In this document: positions 13,801 through 54,710 of the stretch, in pieces
How positions within the stretch are numbered: position 1 is the first letter of the stretch
Layout of the letters: every line of letters begins with the position of its first letter
DNA from: Bradymonas sediminis
GTDB lineage: Bacteria > Myxococcota_A > Bradymonadia > Bradymonadales > Bradymonadaceae
NCBI RefSeq assembly: GCF_003258315.1
Contig: NZ_CP030032.1
Coordinates: forward strand, 4,881,501 to 4,945,500
DNA length: 64,000 nucleotides
Direction: 5' to 3'
The notes under the pieces: generated by a model
Told to the model about the DNA's origin: nothing
The model's database searches: none
The model's input: only the letters and a program-made list of their open reading frames with translations
Program-made: the position numbers and the translations under genes

Positions 13801-15915
13801 TCAGTTGCCGGTCGGCGAGCACATCGAGACGGTCTCGCTGCCGCCGTTGCCGACGTCGACGCGCACGGCCGGGCTGCAGCTCAGTCCGGTTCCGCTGCCG
13901 CAGTCAGCGTCGCTGTCGCACAGGGCGGAGCAGACAAACGCCTGGTCGCCGCACTGCTTTGCGCCGCCGCTGGCCGGGACCTCGCAGACCTGGCCGGGGT
14001 CGCAATCCGACGCGCTCGAGCAGGTGATATTGCCGACGAAGACCGTGTTGGTCAGGCAGAGGTTGCTCTTGCACAGGCTGCTGTCGCCGCCGGTGCCCGC
14101 GGCGTTGGCGCAGCTGTCGCCAAGCTCGCCGGGGGCGGCTGCGTCGCGGCGGAAGCAGGTCTGGTCGACCTCATTTTGGCGCCGGTCGATATTGATGCCG
14201 CAGCCGTGCTCGATCATCTGGGTTCCGTCGTGGAAGTCCAGGCTGCTGCAGTCGTCATCGTTGACGCAGCCGCGCATGCAATGGCCCATTTGCGTGGTGC
14301 CGTTGAGCAAAAAGGAGGTGCAGACCTGGCCGGCGCCGCATTGGCTGTCGTTGTCGCAATACACCGAGCAATCATCGCTCAATCCGGTCAAGCAGATGGT
14401 CGAGCGGCAGTCATCGTGCGAGGTGCAGTTGCCGCCGAGCCCCTGCGGGGCGCTCGCGTCGCGCAGGCCACAGAAGGCTTCGCGCTCGTCGGCGTTGGTG
14501 GCGCCGGTGCGCAGCTCGTTGCACATTTGGGCGCTGTCGGAGCAGATGCCGTCCTGGTCGCAACGCTCGTCGACCAGGGTTTCGCACATATCGAAGGTCC
14601 CCGACAGGCCGTCTTTGCTGACGCTATTGGCGCGGCAAAGCTGGTCGGCGCCGCATTGATTGCGGTTGGTGCAAGGGTCGCTGCAGGTGTCGTTGAGGCA
14701 GACCAGGCTTGCGCATTCGCTGTCGGCGCTACACGCCGTGCCGACGCCTTTTCCGTTGGCCGGGATGCAGGCGGTTTCGAGCGCGGTGTCGGCGGCGTTC
14801 GAGATCACCGCGCAGCGCAGACCGCTGGCGCAATCGTCGTTGGAAGAGCAGGCGTTGGGGTCTTTGGGCACGCAGATCTGCATCGAGTTGCTGCCGCCCG
14901 AGCCGTCGGCGACGTCGGCGGTCGCGCAGTGGTAGCCGGGGCTTGCGCAGTCGCTATCGCTGGTGCAGGCCGGGGTGCAGACTTCGCGGAAGCGCCCGTC
15001 GAAGCACAGGTTCTCGGCGCAGCCGCTGTCGTCGGTGCACAGGTCGCCCAGCGAGCCGCCGCCGGTGTTTTGCGGGCCGCAGAAGGAGTCGCCGGTTTCG
15101 CGGTCGTTCAGGCAGACTTCGCCGACGCGGCATTCGGCGTTTCGCTCACAGGCGCGCGGCGGGGCGCAGAGTTGGCCGGAGGCGGTTTGCCCGCCGTCGA
15201 GCTCCACGCGGGTGAGCTCACAGGCGAAGTTGTCGCCGGCGCGGCAATCGCCGGTGGAGGCGCACGGGCCCGAGCAGACGTCGCTTAAGCAGAGGTTTTG
15301 GGCGCAATCGGCGTCGCCGGCGCAGGTGTCGCCGATCTCGGCGCCGCCGGCGTTGGGCGTGCGGCACTCAAAGACCAGGTCGGTCGCGCTCTTGACCGCC
15401 ACGCAGCGCTCAGGCGAGGCGCAATCGGCGTCGGAGCTGCACTGCTCGGGCGGGCGAGGCACGCAGATATTGATGGTCTCGCCGTTGATCTCGGTCGGGT
15501 CGCAGATGAAGCTGCCATCGTCGGAGCAGTCAATGGGGCGCTGGCAGGGCTGGGCGCATTGGTCGTCGACGCACAGGTTCGACGCGCACTCGGCGTCCGC
15601 GCTGCACGCGTCTCCGAGGTCTCCGCCGCTGCCGGCGTCCTGGCAGGTCATCTCGATGGGCGACGCGGAGCGGTCCACCTTGCAGATCTGGCCGTTCGCG
15701 CAGTCTTCGTTGGCCAGGCAGGTGGTCGAGGACGTGGTGTCGTCCCCGGTCGAGTCCTCGCCAGTGGTGTCTTCAGAGGTCGTGTCCGAGCCGCTGTCCG
15801 AGATCGCGTCGTTATTATTCGCGATGATATCTTTGAGTCCTGCATCATCGCCGGCGCAGGCTGCAAGCAGCCCAAAGACCACGACAATTAGGAAGAATCT
15901 GCTTAAATTTCGCAT
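13801..15915 (-). CDS. Cys-rich tandem-repeat lipoprotein (Dickkopf-like repeats)
   Basis: The ATG at 15915 was chosen because GGAG lies nine bases upstream; an in-frame TTG four codons earlier is less likely. The 704-residue product has the lipobox L-L-A-A-C at Cys20 and an Asn/Asp/Ser/Thr-rich linker. Many Cys-rich repeats of ~40 residues follow, of the type 'GDxCxxDxDCASxLCLxDxC', with 'GQICKVDRSASP' and 'RCAVISNAAD' spacers. Every unit carries several cysteines, so disulfide-stabilised rods outside the cytoplasm are expected. Such proteins are frequent in Bradymonadales and myxobacteria; function is unknown. An operator-like palindrome lies 64-103 bp upstream. Confidence 0.75.
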   Translation of the reverse strand: MRNLSRFFLIVVVFGLLAACAGDDAGLKDIIANNNDAISDSGSDTTSEDTTGEDSTGDDTTSSTTCLANEDCANGQICKVDRSASPIEMTCQDAGSGGDLGDACSADAECASNLCVDDQCAQPCQRPIDCSDDGSFICDPTEINGETINICVPRPPEQCSSDADCASPERCVAVKSATDLVFECRTPNAGGAEIGDTCAGDADCAQNLCLSDVCSGPCASTGDCRAGDNFACELTRVELDGGQTASGQLCAPPRACERNAECRVGEVCLNDRETGDSFCGPQNTGGGSLGDLCTDDSGCAENLCFDGRFREVCTPACTSDSDCASPGYHCATADVADGSGGSNSMQICVPKDPNACSSNDDCASGLRCAVISNAADTALETACIPANGKGVGTACSADSECASLVCLNDTCSDPCTNRNQCGADQLCRANSVSKDGLSGTFDMCETLVDERCDQDGICSDSAQMCNELRTGATNADEREAFCGLRDASAPQGLGGNCTSHDDCRSTICLTGLSDDCSVYCDNDSQCGAGQVCTSFLLNGTTQMGHCMRGCVNDDDCSSLDFHDGTQMIEHGCGINIDRRQNEVDQTCFRRDAAAPGELGDSCANAAGTGGDSSLCKSNLCLTNTVFVGNITCSSASDCDPGQVCEVPASGGAKQCGDQAFVCSALCDSDADCGSGTGLSCSPAVRVDVGNGGSETVSMCSPTGN

Positions 15916-48363: not shown

Positions 48364-49878
48364 TTGAAATCGAAGCTCAAACCTTGTGTTGCGGCGGGAC
48401 TCATTGCGCTCGCCGCCGTCGTGGTTTTGGCGCTTTATGTGGGTGATTCTTGGATCGCCCCGAAGCTTCCTGCGATCATCGGCGCCGCGCTTATTCTGCC
48501 GGTCAGCGTCCTGGGCGCGCTCTTCATTTACCCCGAGGCGAATCAGGGGAAGGGGCGCATCGGGGTGCAACTGTTGACCATCCTATCGGCGGCGATCTTC
48601 GGCCTGGGCATCCCGATCCTGTGGGCCCAGCCGCAGGTGCGAAGTTACGCGGTGGAGCAGGCGCCAGAGATGGTGGTCAACCTCACCTCGGCGCTCGACG
48701 ATCCGGTGCTCGAGGTCAGCAAAAAGGCGTGCCACCGAATTTTGTTGGACCTGTCGCGCACCGAGGCGCTGGTTGACTCGCTGCGCACCCGCCATCCGCT
48801 GGCCGTGGCCTGCCTTAACACGGCAGCCGAGGGTGCCAATCGCAACGCCGTCGCCACCAAATTGCGGATTCAATGGTACCGACCGCTCGTGACCGAGAAG
48901 CAGGACGAGGAGGCCGACCTGTGCGTGAACGCGAAGATGCTCGCGGAGCTTCCCGTCGACGTTTCGCTGAAGCAGGGCGACCTTTTCGACTGCGCGCTGC
49001 GCGCCCCGGAGGGCGACACGCGCCAATGTTGCGCGATGACCCTGACCGCGCTTACCCCGAGTTGTGAGGACCTCGCCGGGCAGATCGACACCAAAAAATT
49101 GGTCGATAATAACACCGTCTCGGCCCTCGGCGCGCTGAGCTACGGCGAGAGCACCGCGGAGAGTGAGTTCCGCGAGGTCGCGAGTTTTGTGGATCTGCAA
49201 TGCCCCGAGATGCAGGCATTTGCCCTGAAGTTGGCGTGCCTCACCTACGCCAAAACCGACGGGGAAACCGACACGAATCGCTTCTTGAATTGGAAATTCG
49301 ACCAGCACCAGGGCTGCCTGAGCCCCGAGGATAAAAAAGAGGCGGCCGAGGTCCACCAGATCTGCACGACGCTCTTAGAGGCGACCGAGGAGAAGACGAC
49401 GGTCTCCGATAAGATGATCTGCGACAGCCACCGGGTGGCCATCGAGCAGGACCGCAGGACGCGCGAGAATATCAAGGGGCTGAGTTCGGCTCAGGGCGCG
49501 GCGCTGGCGACTCAGATCGCCGCCGGCAACCGCAGCGAAGCCCATCGGCGCGGCGACGTCAATCAATGGTTGGAGACCTTCCAGCAGAAGACCGGCGCGC
49601 CCGATCTTGACGCCTACTCCGAGGCGGACAAGCGCGCGCTCATGAAGAAATTCATGCTCAGCGGCCCCAACCCGGACCAGATGCGCGCCAATCCCGTCGA
49701 GGAATACGACAATATTCAGCAAGAATTTAACGCAAAGTTGGCTGCGAACCCGAAACTCAAGGCGAAACTGGAAAAAGAGATCGAGGCGGCAGAAGGCGCC
49801 CCGAGCGAAGAGGAGATGAAAGAGATCACCGAAGCCGGCAGGAAGAAGATTGAGGCCGTTCAGCAGCATTTGAAATAA
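48364..49878 (+). CDS. Multi-TM protein at the head of the pseudopilin-like cluster
   Basis: The frame starts at a TTG (48364). The 504-residue protein has three hydrophobic segments in the first ~110 residues ('LIALAAVVVLALYVG', 'ALILPVSVLGALFIYP', 'LLTILSAAIFGLGIPIL'). A soluble region with ~13 Cys then resembles HEAT/ARM-type helical repeats (~110-330). The final ~120 residues are highly charged and probably coiled-coil ('KLEKEIEAAEG'). I do not recognise the family. It precedes four TadE/TadG-like genes, separated by 250 bp. Confidence 0.55.
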   Translation: MKSKLKPCVAAGLIALAAVVVLALYVGDSWIAPKLPAIIGAALILPVSVLGALFIYPEANQGKGRIGVQLLTILSAAIFGLGIPILWAQPQVRSYAVEQAPEMVVNLTSALDDPVLEVSKKACHRILLDLSRTEALVDSLRTRHPLAVACLNTAAEGANRNAVATKLRIQWYRPLVTEKQDEEADLCVNAKMLAELPVDVSLKQGDLFDCALRAPEGDTRQCCAMTLTALTPSCEDLAGQIDTKKLVDNNTVSALGALSYGESTAESEFREVASFVDLQCPEMQAFALKLACLTYAKTDGETDTNRFLNWKFDQHQGCLSPEDKKEAAEVHQICTTLLEATEEKTTVSDKMICDSHRVAIEQDRRTRENIKGLSSAQGAALATQIAAGNRSEAHRRGDVNQWLETFQQKTGAPDLDAYSEADKRALMKKFMLSGPNPDQMRANPVEEYDNIQQEFNAKLAANPKLKAKLEKEIEAAEGAPSEEEMKEITEAGRKKIEAVQQHLK

Positions 49879-49987
49879 GCGCGCGCCGCCGGCACGCTCC
49901 GCTGCGGCGCGGGCACTCCCGCGTTTGGATGGGGCGCATCGCGGGCCTCGAATTACGATCGCTTTGAGTCGCTCTGCATAAATTGGT

Positions 49988-50015
49988 TTGCTGCACTCGC
50001 AACGCGAGATATATT
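49988..50015 (+). promoter_or_regulatory. Candidate promoter of the TadE-like operon
   Basis: TTGCTG (49988-49993), a 16-bp spacer and TATATT (50010-50015) lie 114 bp before the first TadE-like start. A small inverted repeat ATATA/TATAT follows. Confidence 0.35.
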
Positions 50016-50128
50016 CATATATGGTGTTATTTATGTTGGTGGCCGTGTTTTCTTGTGAATGAGCTAAGTTCGGACGGCCGGGTTGGACATGTGAGGAAGT
50101 TGAACTTCTTTGTTTAGGGACGAATTCG

Positions 50129-51118
50129 ATGCAACAGACGGGAAAAACACCCCTTCGCCTGGTAATTCTAGGCGCTCGGATCTGGATGCACATCATCGCG
50201 GTGTTGGTCATCAGCGTGCTGGTGGGCTTGCTCGTGGCGGATATGCACTCGATGCGCATGTTCTTCGGCGCGGCCTCGGCCGGCGCCTTCCAGATTGACT
50301 GGCTGCGCCTGGGGATTCACCTGCTCCTGTCGGCCGCGCTCTGGGGGTTTTGCGTCTACGGGTTCTCGCTGCTTCAGCAGCGCAAACGCCAGGCCGTCAA
50401 GCTGCATCGGGTTCGCGGCTCGGTCATGGTGGAGACCTTGATCGCGCTGGTTCCCTTTTTGCTGCTGACCTCCGGCATCGCCCAATACGCCATGATCAAC
50501 GTCGCCAGCCTCCTCAGCGACCTGGCGGTTTACCAGGCCGCGCGCACCGCGTGGATCTGGCAGCCCGAGGCCGACTCGCGGCGCAATGGCTCCTCGGGGT
50601 ATAACCGGGTCACCGCCGATGACGTGAAATTTCGCGCCCGCACCGCCGCCGCCCTGGCGCTGGCCCCCAGCGCGTCCTCCGATTTCACGGTCGGTCGCAA
50701 CTTCCCCGAGGGCAGCGGGCCTCCCTTCCGCCGCATTCGAACCGCGGTCGCGGCGACCTTCAATAAGACGCCGATCTCCGGGGAGAATTTCTGGACCGCG
50801 ACCGGCTCGAACTGGAGCTTCTTCCGCGAAGACATCATTCACGGTGAGCACAAAGATATGAGCGTTTCGAGGGCCTTTGACACCGGCAGCTTTTATCTGC
50901 GCGCCGGTCGCAAGGTGACCTCCGCCTGGATGGGCCTCGAGGATTTTGAGGTGGTGCACGAGGGGGACCGCGTCGGGGTGGAGTTCACGTACCAATACTC
51001 GGTCATTTTCCCCTGGTTCGCCTATCTTTTCGGCACCGAATCGCGTTTCGGCGAGCGTGACGGATATTATATTCCGATTACCCGAAAGATGACCTTGCTC
51101 AAGCAGCCTGGCATGTGA
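50129..51118 (+). CDS. TadE-like pseudopilin with N-terminal two-TM extension
   Basis: In this 329-residue protein the TadE-type helix lies inside rather than at the start: 'RGSVMVETLIALVPFLLLTSG' at ~96-116, with the +5-like Glu at 102. Two extra hydrophobic segments (~22-38 and ~62-82) come first, so the leader is very long for a prepilin peptidase substrate. The C-terminal ~200 residues ('SSDFTVGRNFPEG', 'VVHEGDRVGVEFTYQYSV') look like a beta-rich exported domain. It starts the cluster with the TadG- and TadE-like genes. Confidence 0.65.
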   Translation: MQQTGKTPLRLVILGARIWMHIIAVLVISVLVGLLVADMHSMRMFFGAASAGAFQIDWLRLGIHLLLSAALWGFCVYGFSLLQQRKRQAVKLHRVRGSVMVETLIALVPFLLLTSGIAQYAMINVASLLSDLAVYQAARTAWIWQPEADSRRNGSSGYNRVTADDVKFRARTAAALALAPSASSDFTVGRNFPEGSGPPFRRIRTAVAATFNKTPISGENFWTATGSNWSFFREDIIHGEHKDMSVSRAFDTGSFYLRAGRKVTSAWMGLEDFEVVHEGDRVGVEFTYQYSVIFPWFAYLFGTESRFGERDGYYIPITRKMTLLKQPGM

Positions 51119-51157
51119 GTCACGCCCCTTGGCGTCATATTATCTGGATAATCACCC

Positions 51158-52525
51158 ATGCGCTTATCAGTTAAAATACAAGATCTAGTCCAAGGCTGGC
51201 ACCGCGACGACAGCGGGGCGATCGTCTTATTATGCCTGGCCGCGTGCTTGTTTTTGTTCATGGTCGGGCTGTTGATGTACGACACCGGCCAGGTCGCCCG
51301 CGACAAGGTCGACGTGCAGATGGCTGCCGACACCGCCGCCTATAGCCAGGCGTCGGTGCAGGCCCGGGCGATGAACTCCATCGCATTCGCCAACGTCGGA
51401 AAGCGCACGATCACCGGCATCCGCAATATGTATTACACCCAATTTTACCACTACTTTAAGTGGTATCGCGGGCAATGTAAGCGCTGCTGTTGCGGGTTCT
51501 GGTGCGGCTGCTGGGGCGCGTGTTTGAACTGCGCCGGCAATACGCTGTCATTGGTGCCGTTTTTGGGGGCGGTCGACTCGCTCTTCTTCACCCTGGCACG
51601 CCTGCCGATCTTCGAAGATAAGATGACCAAGCACCTGAAAGCCCTGGATAAATTCCAGGCTGAGATGGCCGCCTATGCGCCGTATTGGGCGCTCGGAGAA
51701 GGGGTCGTGCGCGGCGCGCGAAACGGCGCCCACGCCGTCACCACCTATCCGCTGCCCAAGACCCCGACCTTCGGCCCCTTACCGGTCAAAAAGAGCTCCG
51801 GGTTTGGCGCGGCGATCGAAAGCTGCCTGTTCCCGACCTATTTCTTCAACCCGTCGAGCATGGGAACCATCACCGAGATGGACCGCAACTTCGCCGTGCT
51901 CAAGCGCAACAGCGTGAGCCGCCCTTATATGGCGAGCAAGGGCCCGCGTGAGGTGGTCTCTCGCTTCCGCGCCGCCGAGGGTTGCATGACCGGAATGATG
52001 CCCAGCTTCCTCTTCCCGGACAATAAATACGCCCCGCCCTATCATTTGACCGCCGATGGTAATTCGGGCTCCGACTATATGAAGCGCTCCAATATCGTCT
52101 GGACCTACCGCTATACCCCCGATATGGCGACCAAATTGCGCGATAATTATAACGCGGTGCTCTCCAAGGACTACACCACCGACATCATCGGTCTGCCCCA
52201 CTCGGGCATGTGGGCGATGTCGCGCGGCGAGATGTATTATCGGGAGAAAAATGACCCGAATTTCGTCAAGGGCCCCAACGCGATGTGGATGTTTCACCCC
52301 AGCTGGATCGGCAAGCTTCGCCCGGTGCTGCTCAAGAATGAACGTCTGCCCGTTGACCCGAGCGATATGTGGGCCGAATCCCGCGGCCTCGCCCTGCGCC
52401 AGGCGCCGCTATTTGGGGTCGACCTGAGCGACTTCGGCAAAGATCTATTGTATATGGAAAAAGCGACGCTCGGCATGGACGGCAAAATCGAAGGCAAGGA
52501 GGTGCTTGATGGAATCGCCAAATAA
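51158..52525 (+). CDS. TadG-like membrane protein with eight-cysteine cluster
   Basis: The 455-residue protein opens with 'RDDSGAIVLLCLAACLFLFMVGLLMYDTG', the TadG/Flp-assembly-type N-terminal membrane helix, and 'DVQMAADTAAYSQA', typical of TadG N-termini. Residues 107-125 contain eight cysteines (107, 110, 111, 112, 116, 118, 122, 125), a density suggestive of metal or disulfide bridging. The rest is soluble and beta-rich, without a von Willebrand domain of usual TadG. It follows the TadE-like gene by 39 bp and overlaps the next by 17 bp. Confidence 0.65.
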   Translation: MRLSVKIQDLVQGWHRDDSGAIVLLCLAACLFLFMVGLLMYDTGQVARDKVDVQMAADTAAYSQASVQARAMNSIAFANVGKRTITGIRNMYYTQFYHYFKWYRGQCKRCCCGFWCGCWGACLNCAGNTLSLVPFLGAVDSLFFTLARLPIFEDKMTKHLKALDKFQAEMAAYAPYWALGEGVVRGARNGAHAVTTYPLPKTPTFGPLPVKKSSGFGAAIESCLFPTYFFNPSSMGTITEMDRNFAVLKRNSVSRPYMASKGPREVVSRFRAAEGCMTGMMPSFLFPDNKYAPPYHLTADGNSGSDYMKRSNIVWTYRYTPDMATKLRDNYNAVLSKDYTTDIIGLPHSGMWAMSRGEMYYREKNDPNFVKGPNAMWMFHPSWIGKLRPVLLKNERLPVDPSDMWAESRGLALRQAPLFGVDLSDFGKDLLYMEKATLGMDGKIEGKEVLDGIAK

Positions 52526-53345
52526 GACACACTTTTTGTTTCGCCTGAGCCGACGCATCCTTGGATCATTTGGCGCCTTTAGCCGCAATGACCGCGGCAC
52601 GGCGTTGACCGAGTTTGTGATCATGTTGCCGGTCTTTATCCTGATTTGGGTCGGCATGATCAACCTATTTAAGCTTGAGAACGGCGGCATGCGCGCCAAG
52701 ATCAAGGCCAGCTCGCAGACCTGGGAGAAGGCCATGACGGTCGCCCACGGCGGGCATGTCCCCGAGGCCAAAGCCGGCGTTCACATCATGGCTGGCCTGG
52801 ACGCCATCGATAACGTGAACAACCGCCCCAGCGGCACCGCGGATTCCTTCGCCCACCTCAAAAATGCCCGGCTCGCCAGCCAGGGCAATCGAGGCGAGGC
52901 GCAGGGGTCGGCCACCATGGCGAGGCTGCTCGGCCAGACGCCGCCCGCGCAGCCGGCCGGCCAGGGATTGCGCAGCCATTATTCACGCGCGATGCTCGAC
53001 GACTCCCGCTCGAACTTCATCAACTCGGCCCCCGGCCCGCTCGGGATCTATGCGCCGGTTATCCCGGAGTCGATCCAATCGATTGGCTACAATCACGCCC
53101 CGGCCACCGGAAACCGCTACGGGTCGGTCTTCGGCGAGCATATCGAGCAGGTCGAGGTCTACGGTCAGATGAACGAATTGGGCGCCACCTACGACGTGCT
53201 TAACTCGCCGGTGGGCAAGCCCAAGCGAACCGATGATCTGATCTACGTCCCCGGGTTCTCGCGCTTGATGGCCGAACAAGACAAATGCCTCCGGAGCGTC
53301 TTGGAGCTTGGCCGCCGCATGAAGTACTTTAAGAATTGCCTATAA
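52509..53345 (+). CDS. TadE-like pseudopilin
   Basis: The 278-residue protein starts at an ATG with AAGGAGG in front, overlapping the previous gene by 17 bp. After a basic leader (1-28), 'RNDRGTALTEFVIMLPVFIL' (~26-45) gives the TadE motif with a Glu at ~35, followed by an exported domain of ~230 residues. Normal TadE proteins are 150-200 residues, so this one has an enlarged exported part. The other cluster genes suggest it forms a fibre or complex with them. Confidence 0.65.
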   Translation: MESPNKTHFLFRLSRRILGSFGAFSRNDRGTALTEFVIMLPVFILIWVGMINLFKLENGGMRAKIKASSQTWEKAMTVAHGGHVPEAKAGVHIMAGLDAIDNVNNRPSGTADSFAHLKNARLASQGNRGEAQGSATMARLLGQTPPAQPAGQGLRSHYSRAMLDDSRSNFINSAPGPLGIYAPVIPESIQSIGYNHAPATGNRYGSVFGEHIEQVEVYGQMNELGATYDVLNSPVGKPKRTDDLIYVPGFSRLMAEQDKCLRSVLELGRRMKYFKNCL

Positions 53346-53357
53346 TAGGAGGACCTC

Positions 53358-54710
53358 GTGACCTGGCATAGTGTTGGAAAAAATTTGGCGCGTATTCTCC
53401 TGACCTGCGCGATTATCCTGGGCATCGGCGCGGCGATCGTGGTCTTGTCGCCCGAGTCCAAGGCGACGCGCGTCGCGGTCGACACCGCCCGCGCGAATAT
53501 CTTCTGGATGACCCCGTCCACGCCGAGCAATACCCAGAAATTCACCGCCGCCCTGCGCGACCTGGGCCACGAGCCGCCGCGCGCCTACCGGCTCAATGAC
53601 AATAACGTGTATTTCTCGACCCGGGTGACCCACAAAAGCCCGGAGATGCTCGTGCACGAGTATCAGCAGGCCTTCGTGAACAGCGGGCTCAATAGTCGCG
53701 CCTGGCTGCAGAGCACCGAGGGGCTGCTCAGCCAGCCGAGCACCGCTTCGCGCATGACGCAATTCGACGAGCGCTCCGAGGCCGCCATGGCCGGTGAGGT
53801 GCTGCCGGCGAGTGTGTCGCGCAATCATTTTGTGATGACCGGGATGCTCGTCAATAATCCCGCCGATTCCCAGAGCGAAGATGATTCGCTGACCGCCTCG
53901 GTCGAGGCCATCGAGAAGGCGCGCGTGCGCCTCGCGGCAAGTTATACCCAATGCGGCGGTGACCCGGCGGCGCTCAAGCGCGCGCAGCAACGCGCCAAGA
54001 ATCAGCCGCTTCAAGAGGGCTCCGCGGCCCAGAAGCTCGACACCGCCCTGGCTCGCCAGAGCTCCTGCGACAGCGGTGGCCCGCAATATTGCTCCGACCT
54101 GCGCGAGCGGCTCAACGCCGGCAACGCCGAGCTCAAGGCCATCGAGGCCGCCATCAACGCCCAGCCCGGGCTCAAAGACTGCGAGGCGCTGCGCAAGTTT
54201 GACCGCGACACCCTCTCGATGATGTCCGAGCAGATGACCGACCGCGTCTATGCCTTCCGCTCCCTGGAGGCCACGCGCGACCCGGCTTCCGGCCAGACCA
54301 TGGTCACCGCGAGCTGGAGTGACGAGGAGTTCGACATGAACTCGGTGCTCGCCGATGAGTACCCCGTGTCGCGAAACGGCGCCGATGAGATTCCGCTGTG
54401 CGACTCCTGCAAGCGCGCGCTGAGCTTCGACGGCACCGCCGATGAGGCCCTCTACTCGACCCACTCGCTGTGGTCGACCGAGCCGGTGTCGCGCGTCGCC
54501 TCCGAGTATATCAGCTCGCTTACCCGGGATGGCTGGGACTATATCGACGGCGATTCCCTCGCCCGCCAGGTCCTCGCCCGCATCGAGACCCCCGAGCCTG
54601 ACACCGGCAGCGTGCTTCGCTTCCGCCGCGACCAACAAAGCATGACCATTAATCTGCGCAGCGACCGAAACTCCGGGCGCACGTTGATCACCGTCGGCAC
54701 CACGCAATAA
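53358..54710 (+). CDS. Exported protein with one N-terminal helix, end of the pseudopilin-like cluster
   Basis: The GTG start has an AGGAGG Shine-Dalgarno 5 bp in front. The 450-residue protein has one membrane helix ('NLARILLTCAIILGIGAAIVVL', split here as ~8-29), then a predicted helical/coiled-coil middle ('SVEAIEKARVRLAAS', ~190-270) with several Cys and a C-terminal beta part. No family was recognised. Only 12 bp separates it from the TadE-like gene before, so it is in the same operon. Confidence 0.55.
   Translation: MTWHSVGKNLARILLTCAIILGIGAAIVVLSPESKATRVAVDTARANIFWMTPSTPSNTQKFTAALRDLGHEPPRAYRLNDNNVYFSTRVTHKSPEMLVHEYQQAFVNSGLNSRAWLQSTEGLLSQPSTASRMTQFDERSEAAMAGEVLPASVSRNHFVMTGMLVNNPADSQSEDDSLTASVEAIEKARVRLAASYTQCGGDPAALKRAQQRAKNQPLQEGSAAQKLDTALARQSSCDSGGPQYCSDLRERLNAGNAELKAIEAAINAQPGLKDCEALRKFDRDTLSMMSEQMTDRVYAFRSLEATRDPASGQTMVTASWSDEEFDMNSVLADEYPVSRNGADEIPLCDSCKRALSFDGTADEALYSTHSLWSTEPVSRVASEYISSLTRDGWDYIDGDSLARQVLARIETPEPDTGSVLRFRRDQQSMTINLRSDRNSGRTLITVGTTQ

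Follow-up and report, generated by a model that had tools for sequence, protein, structure and literature searches.

A TadE/TadG-like gene cluster of the predator Bradymonas sediminis is probably a detachable tip cassette of a remotely encoded, Kil-like Tad pilus

The genome of Bradymonas sediminis, a cultured predator of other bacteria (PMC7460792), consisted of one contig of 5,045,683 bp, and the window analyzed here was a 64,000-nucleotide stretch of it (C1:4881501-4945500). Five adjacent genes were found on the forward strand of the window, namely W1 (48364-49878; 504 aa, TTG start), W2 (50129-51118; 329 aa), W3 (51158-52525; 455 aa), W4 (52509-53345; 278 aa) and W5 (53358-54710; 450 aa, GTG start). 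W1 was separated from W2 by 250 bp and W2 from W3 by 39 bp, W3 and W4 overlapped by 17 bp, and a gap of 12 bp lay between W4 and W5; a preliminary description of this DNA proved accurate for the positions, the lengths and the three tight junctions. Because of the 250 bp that precede W2, W1 was regarded as an accessory gene not tightly coupled to the others, the tight unit being W2 to W5. As that description had also held, no gene for a T2SSE ATPase, a T2SSF platform protein or a prepilin peptidase was found in the window, nor was a complete tad locus found immediately outside it. Rather than ATPase, platform, secretin and pilins together, the window held the minor-pilin part only.

Whole-protein scans assigned W3 to the Pfam family Tad (PF13400; 30.8 bits, cut-off 22.3), and gave weak matches to TadE (PF07811; cut-off 22.9) for W2 (18.8 bits, residues 97-139) and W4 (17.6 bits), both below the cut-off, which W2 exceeded as a translated-genome match (23.5 bits). 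W2 and W4 were thus considered TadE-like minor pilins, in KilL-like and KilM-like positions, and W3 a large TadG-like minor pilin in a KilN-like position. The TadE or Tad domain was located at the N-terminal hydrophobic helix, preceded in W2 and W4 by a class III prepilin motif (G|xxxxE). The predicted motifs were R-G97|SVMVE-TL in W2 and RG30|TALTE-F in W4, each with Glu at +5; that of W3 was SG20|AIVLL, with no Glu5. Across the four copies in this genome (see below), G97, S98, V99, E102 and T103 of W2 were invariant, as were G30, L33, T34, E35, L40 and P41 of W4. The length of W3 ranged from 450 to 722 aa among 22 members from the family of B. sediminis, with start codons left uncurated; its ends were conserved and its middle variable, the least conserved parts being residues ~91-150 and 211-300 of the window protein.

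Two transmembrane helices were present upstream of the pilin motif of W2 in all 25 modules checked in the family. Such a two-helix membrane leader is unusual for a prepilin and appears to be a new feature, and cleavage of W2 is a prediction only. With the N-terminus inside, as the inferred topology would have it, the motif would remain on the cytoplasmic side, the side on which prepilin peptidases cleave.

W5 carried no prepilin motif, and consisted of one N-terminal hydrophobic helix (an anchor or a signal peptide) followed by a body that is presumably periplasmic. It had been described as N-terminally anchored; the helix was recovered, but a small-x-Ala pattern conserved after it (e.g., ARA|N, SQA|D, AEA|D, AKA|D) resembles a signal-peptidase site, and the anchoring is therefore unproven. 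None of the 22 W5 members scanned belonged to a Pfam family, and comparison with the PDB gave nothing significant by sequence and no fold match at E ≤ 0.001. The AlphaFold model had a pLDDT of 70, and an internal repeat was matched weakly (hhalign probability 22%). Paralogs of W5 were detected by phmmer in all four modules of the genome, a profile of these four copies found it in 19 of 21 genomes of the family (1-5 copies each), and a wider W5 profile in 91 of 379 Myxococcota genomes. W5 thus appears to be a new, conserved fourth partner of the pilin trio. The window copy has an insertion of ~110 residues (~181-290), predicted to be helical, where most other W5 proteins are gapped (87%); the W5 proteins of its closest module relatives (L102 and L099) were 439 and 448 aa, lengths suggesting that these two have the insertion as well.

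W1 began with three hydrophobic helices followed by an all-helical body, and had no match in Pfam. Its AlphaFold model was of low confidence (pLDDT 58) and gave no Foldseek match at E ≤ 0.001; the ARM/HEAT-like appearance of the modeled body is a low-confidence lead only. A homolog occupied the same position in one other module of the genome (L033:11233-12882; BLASTP E 4e-10), and W1 accompanied 11-12 of about 25 modules examined in the family, in one of which (L100) it lay on the opposite strand. It appears to be a new all-helical protein attached to a subset of modules.

Searches of the genome with TadE and Tad profiles revealed four pairs of TadE matches and four Tad matches, and phmmer placed homologs of W2-W3-W4-W5, in this order, at four loci, the window and three others (L031, L032, and L033). 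The recurrence of this order four times in the genome, and throughout the family, shows that the cluster is not due to chance. Gene duplicates are common, and single-Tip deletions in Myxococcus were reported to have weak phenotypes (PMC12075869), so the modules might be relics or redundant duplicates of no distinct function. However, at only 22-37% identity to the window copy, the other copies had kept open frames, prepilin motifs and gene order, and in a W3 tree three of the four modules paired one-to-one, with starred support, with modules of a genome from another genus (G146), which makes relics extremely unlikely. The pairing implies that the tip types arose before these genera did, and that the modules are old and maintained.

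A single Tad operon was found in the genome (C1:200310-211852), at a distance of about 310 kb from W1-W5 on the assumption of a circular chromosome. Its products were RcpC/CpaB, a secretin, an FHA-T2SSE ATPase (TadA), TadB and TadC, one FHA and one TPR protein, and a pilin-like (Flp-like) protein with a GATTTE motif, but neither TadE nor TadG; Pfam confirmed RcpC, Secretin, FHA plus T2SSE, and two T2SSF proteins. Two A24 prepilin peptidase genes (1.64 and 4.81 Mb) and two weak Flp-like short frames were located away from this machine, and no part of the machinery adjoined the window cluster. The genome thus combines four paralogous minor-pilin modules with one TadB/TadC pair. Two more CpaF-like ATPases, at 3.01 and 2.65 Mb (L036:8609-9805 and L038:7213-9360), had no adjoining TadB/TadC; one adjoined a 666-aa protein, and the other carried an FHA domain itself and had a probable FHA protein as neighbor. 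A weak TadE match beside the orphan CpaF at 3.01 Mb (E 0.11), considered as a possible second tad locus, lay inside a long frame that encodes a different protein and was discounted as a chance match.

The same separation was found in the family. A TadC profile gave exactly two matches (TadB and TadC) in every family genome with any, vs. 1-5 copies of W5, indicating one machine each. Among the 21 genomes the exceptions were G087, with neither; G112 (84% complete), with W5 and no TadC match; and G214 (genus g10, 87% complete), which had a core Tad operon and no detectable W5. The tip genes of G214, if any, must be very different, and W5 cannot be an absolute requirement. In three further genomes of the family, the core operon (L144, L145, and L147) had the gene order of the B. 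sediminis operon and likewise no module. In complete genomes the module nearest to TadC was ~316 kb away in B. sediminis, 304 kb in G146, and 171 kb in G082. The family loci examined kept the order W2-W3-W4-W5, the exceptions being truncated contigs, one locus in which W5 was unmatched (L055), and one mapped for W5 only (L107).

In other Myxococcota the two halves were joined. W2-W3-W4-W5 was followed by CpaB-RcpA-FHA-TadA-TadB-TadC in one locus in four cases (L112, L118, L138, and L139), and in eight more (L113-L117, L140, L141, and L143) with one pilin undetected or rearranged. The block, or most of it, was thereby linked to tad assembly genes in five families (f11, f14, f18, f28, and f42). 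Outside the family, positions of both W5 and TadC were available for 55 genomes; the two lay on one contig 3.7-10.6 kb apart in 40 of them and on different contigs in the other 15. Since the block stands directly upstream of the machine in these families, the window cluster can be read as the minor-pilin half of a Tad locus that has been detached and multiplied, which, judging from gene order, would most simply explain the origin of the Bradymonadales modules. The W2 of the linked family f11 has the same two-helix leader, which therefore predates detachment; other distant loci mostly had an ordinary short leader. Outside the family, a further W2-W5 module was found at L142 (G193:C76:78000-97000), where the 19 kb analyzed gave no match to a machine gene; another block of this genome, L116, is linked to a machine. 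Detached tip cassettes thus occur elsewhere too.

This linkage bears on two other explanations. The cassettes could form envelope assemblies of their own, i.e., pseudopilin-like complexes, perhaps with W5 and W1, rather than tips of a Tad pilus, as would suit their detachment across the whole family, the two extra helices of W2, and the absence of a known Tad counterpart for W5 and W1. The same genes lie inside tad loci in five families, though, in one of them with the two-helix leader, and module-bearing genomes of the family keep the machine, save for the incomplete assembly G112, so that this explanation is quite unlikely. Assembly of the minor pilins by a different filament machine is very unlikely: the genome does encode a type IVa PilB/PilC (3.99 Mb), a type II secretion system (0.14 Mb) and the two CpaF-like ATPases, but TadE/TadG pilins belong to Tad systems, synteny in the loci examined tied the block to TadA/B/C and never to PilB/PilC, and the orphan ATPases lack a TadB/C partner. 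The preliminary description had offered distant machinery or a different envelope assembly; the evidence favored the former.

The arrangement resembles that published for Myxococcus xanthus, in which four paralogous kilLMN clusters are described as interchangeable Tips of one Kil pilus (Herrou et al., 2025; PMC12075869). According to that paper, the Tips are required for pilus formation and predation, any one of them is enough for pilus formation, and full loss needs all four to be gone. The same paper lists potential Tip complexes in B. sediminis, found, like the other Tips outside myxobacteria, by structure only, and a Kil machine had been noted in Bradymonadales in 2021 (Seef et al., 2021; PMC8460266). 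B. sediminis shares with M. xanthus a trio of neighboring TadE/TadG/TadE(F)-like pilin genes, its presence in four scattered paralogous clusters, a single Kil/Tad machine, a large TadG-like pilin that is variable in part, and a predatory host, a likeness to KilL, KilM and KilN drawn from the published gene layout. Like the Bradymonadales Kil system (PMC8460266), the operon at 0.2 Mb has an FHA-fused TadA, an extra FHA protein, a secretin, CpaB and two platform proteins. The differences are that each B. sediminis trio is followed by W5, that W2 has its leader, and that W1 accompanies some modules. Moreover, the core machine is in one operon, whereas that of Myxococcus is split between two clusters, and all four modules lie apart from it, whereas Tip4 is reported inside kil cluster II (PMC12075869). 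Standard tad loci encode the minor pilins TadE, TadF and TadG, and in distant Myxococcota a small, a large and a small pilin gene were likewise seen adjoining the machine, whereas the Bradymonadales trio is detached, multiplied and joined by W5. Because the architecture of four KilLMN Tips and one machine had been published, the cluster does not represent an undescribed system, as first suggested, nor was a separate envelope assembly supported.

Taken together, the window cluster very likely supplies the minor pilins for the tip of a Tad (type IVc, Kil-like) pilus, as a detachable cassette served by a remote machine, with four interchangeable tip-gene sets probably sharing that machine. Under this model, W2, W3 and W4 would be cut at G|xxxxE or SG|A by a TadV/PilD-type peptidase encoded elsewhere, and would join as a heterotrimer that starts pilus assembly and closes off the pilus end. 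Any of the four cassettes, when supplied, would be assembled by the single Tad machine, and the variable part of W3 would face whatever comes into contact with the pilus, probably prey. W5 would be a partner specific to its tip, located in the periplasm or the inner membrane, where it probably helps to load or fold the three pilins of its own cassette; W1 would be an optional accessory.

The 2025 Kil paper names as an open question how the single Tad pilus of a predator chooses its tip, and its main text makes no mention that we found of a fourth conserved gene beside the Tip trio (PMC12075869). Bradymonadales offer a clean natural case, with one machine operon, fully detached cassettes that can be sorted into old, conserved tip types, and a non-pilin W5 with each; as it travels with each cassette, W5 is a concrete candidate for tip loading. 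Tentatively, the Tad/Kil pili of myxobacteria might possess in W5 a dedicated component so far unrecognized, a periplasmic factor that is inherited along with each trio and loads or selects tips, so that one machine can choose among interchangeable ones. The waiting tip might be held in the inner membrane by the two leader helices of W2 and, in modules that have it, by W1. Three features merit follow-up in our judgement: W5, as a Tad component general to Myxococcota; the leader of W2; and W1.

Some further arrangements were observed. An uncultured Myxococcales MAG (G132) carried two W2-W5 modules in tandem (L111/L057, 4920-15387), and in a Planctomycetota MAG (L060) W2-like and W3-like genes adjoined CpaB, TadA, TadB and TadC. 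The B. sediminis genome also contained FliP- and FliR-family type III export genes (L037:13794-14603 and 14931-15749, C1 ~4.589-4.591 Mb; Pfam 229 and 189 bits). As the Tips of Myxococcus depend on a needleless type III secretion system, these genes may encode a partner system.
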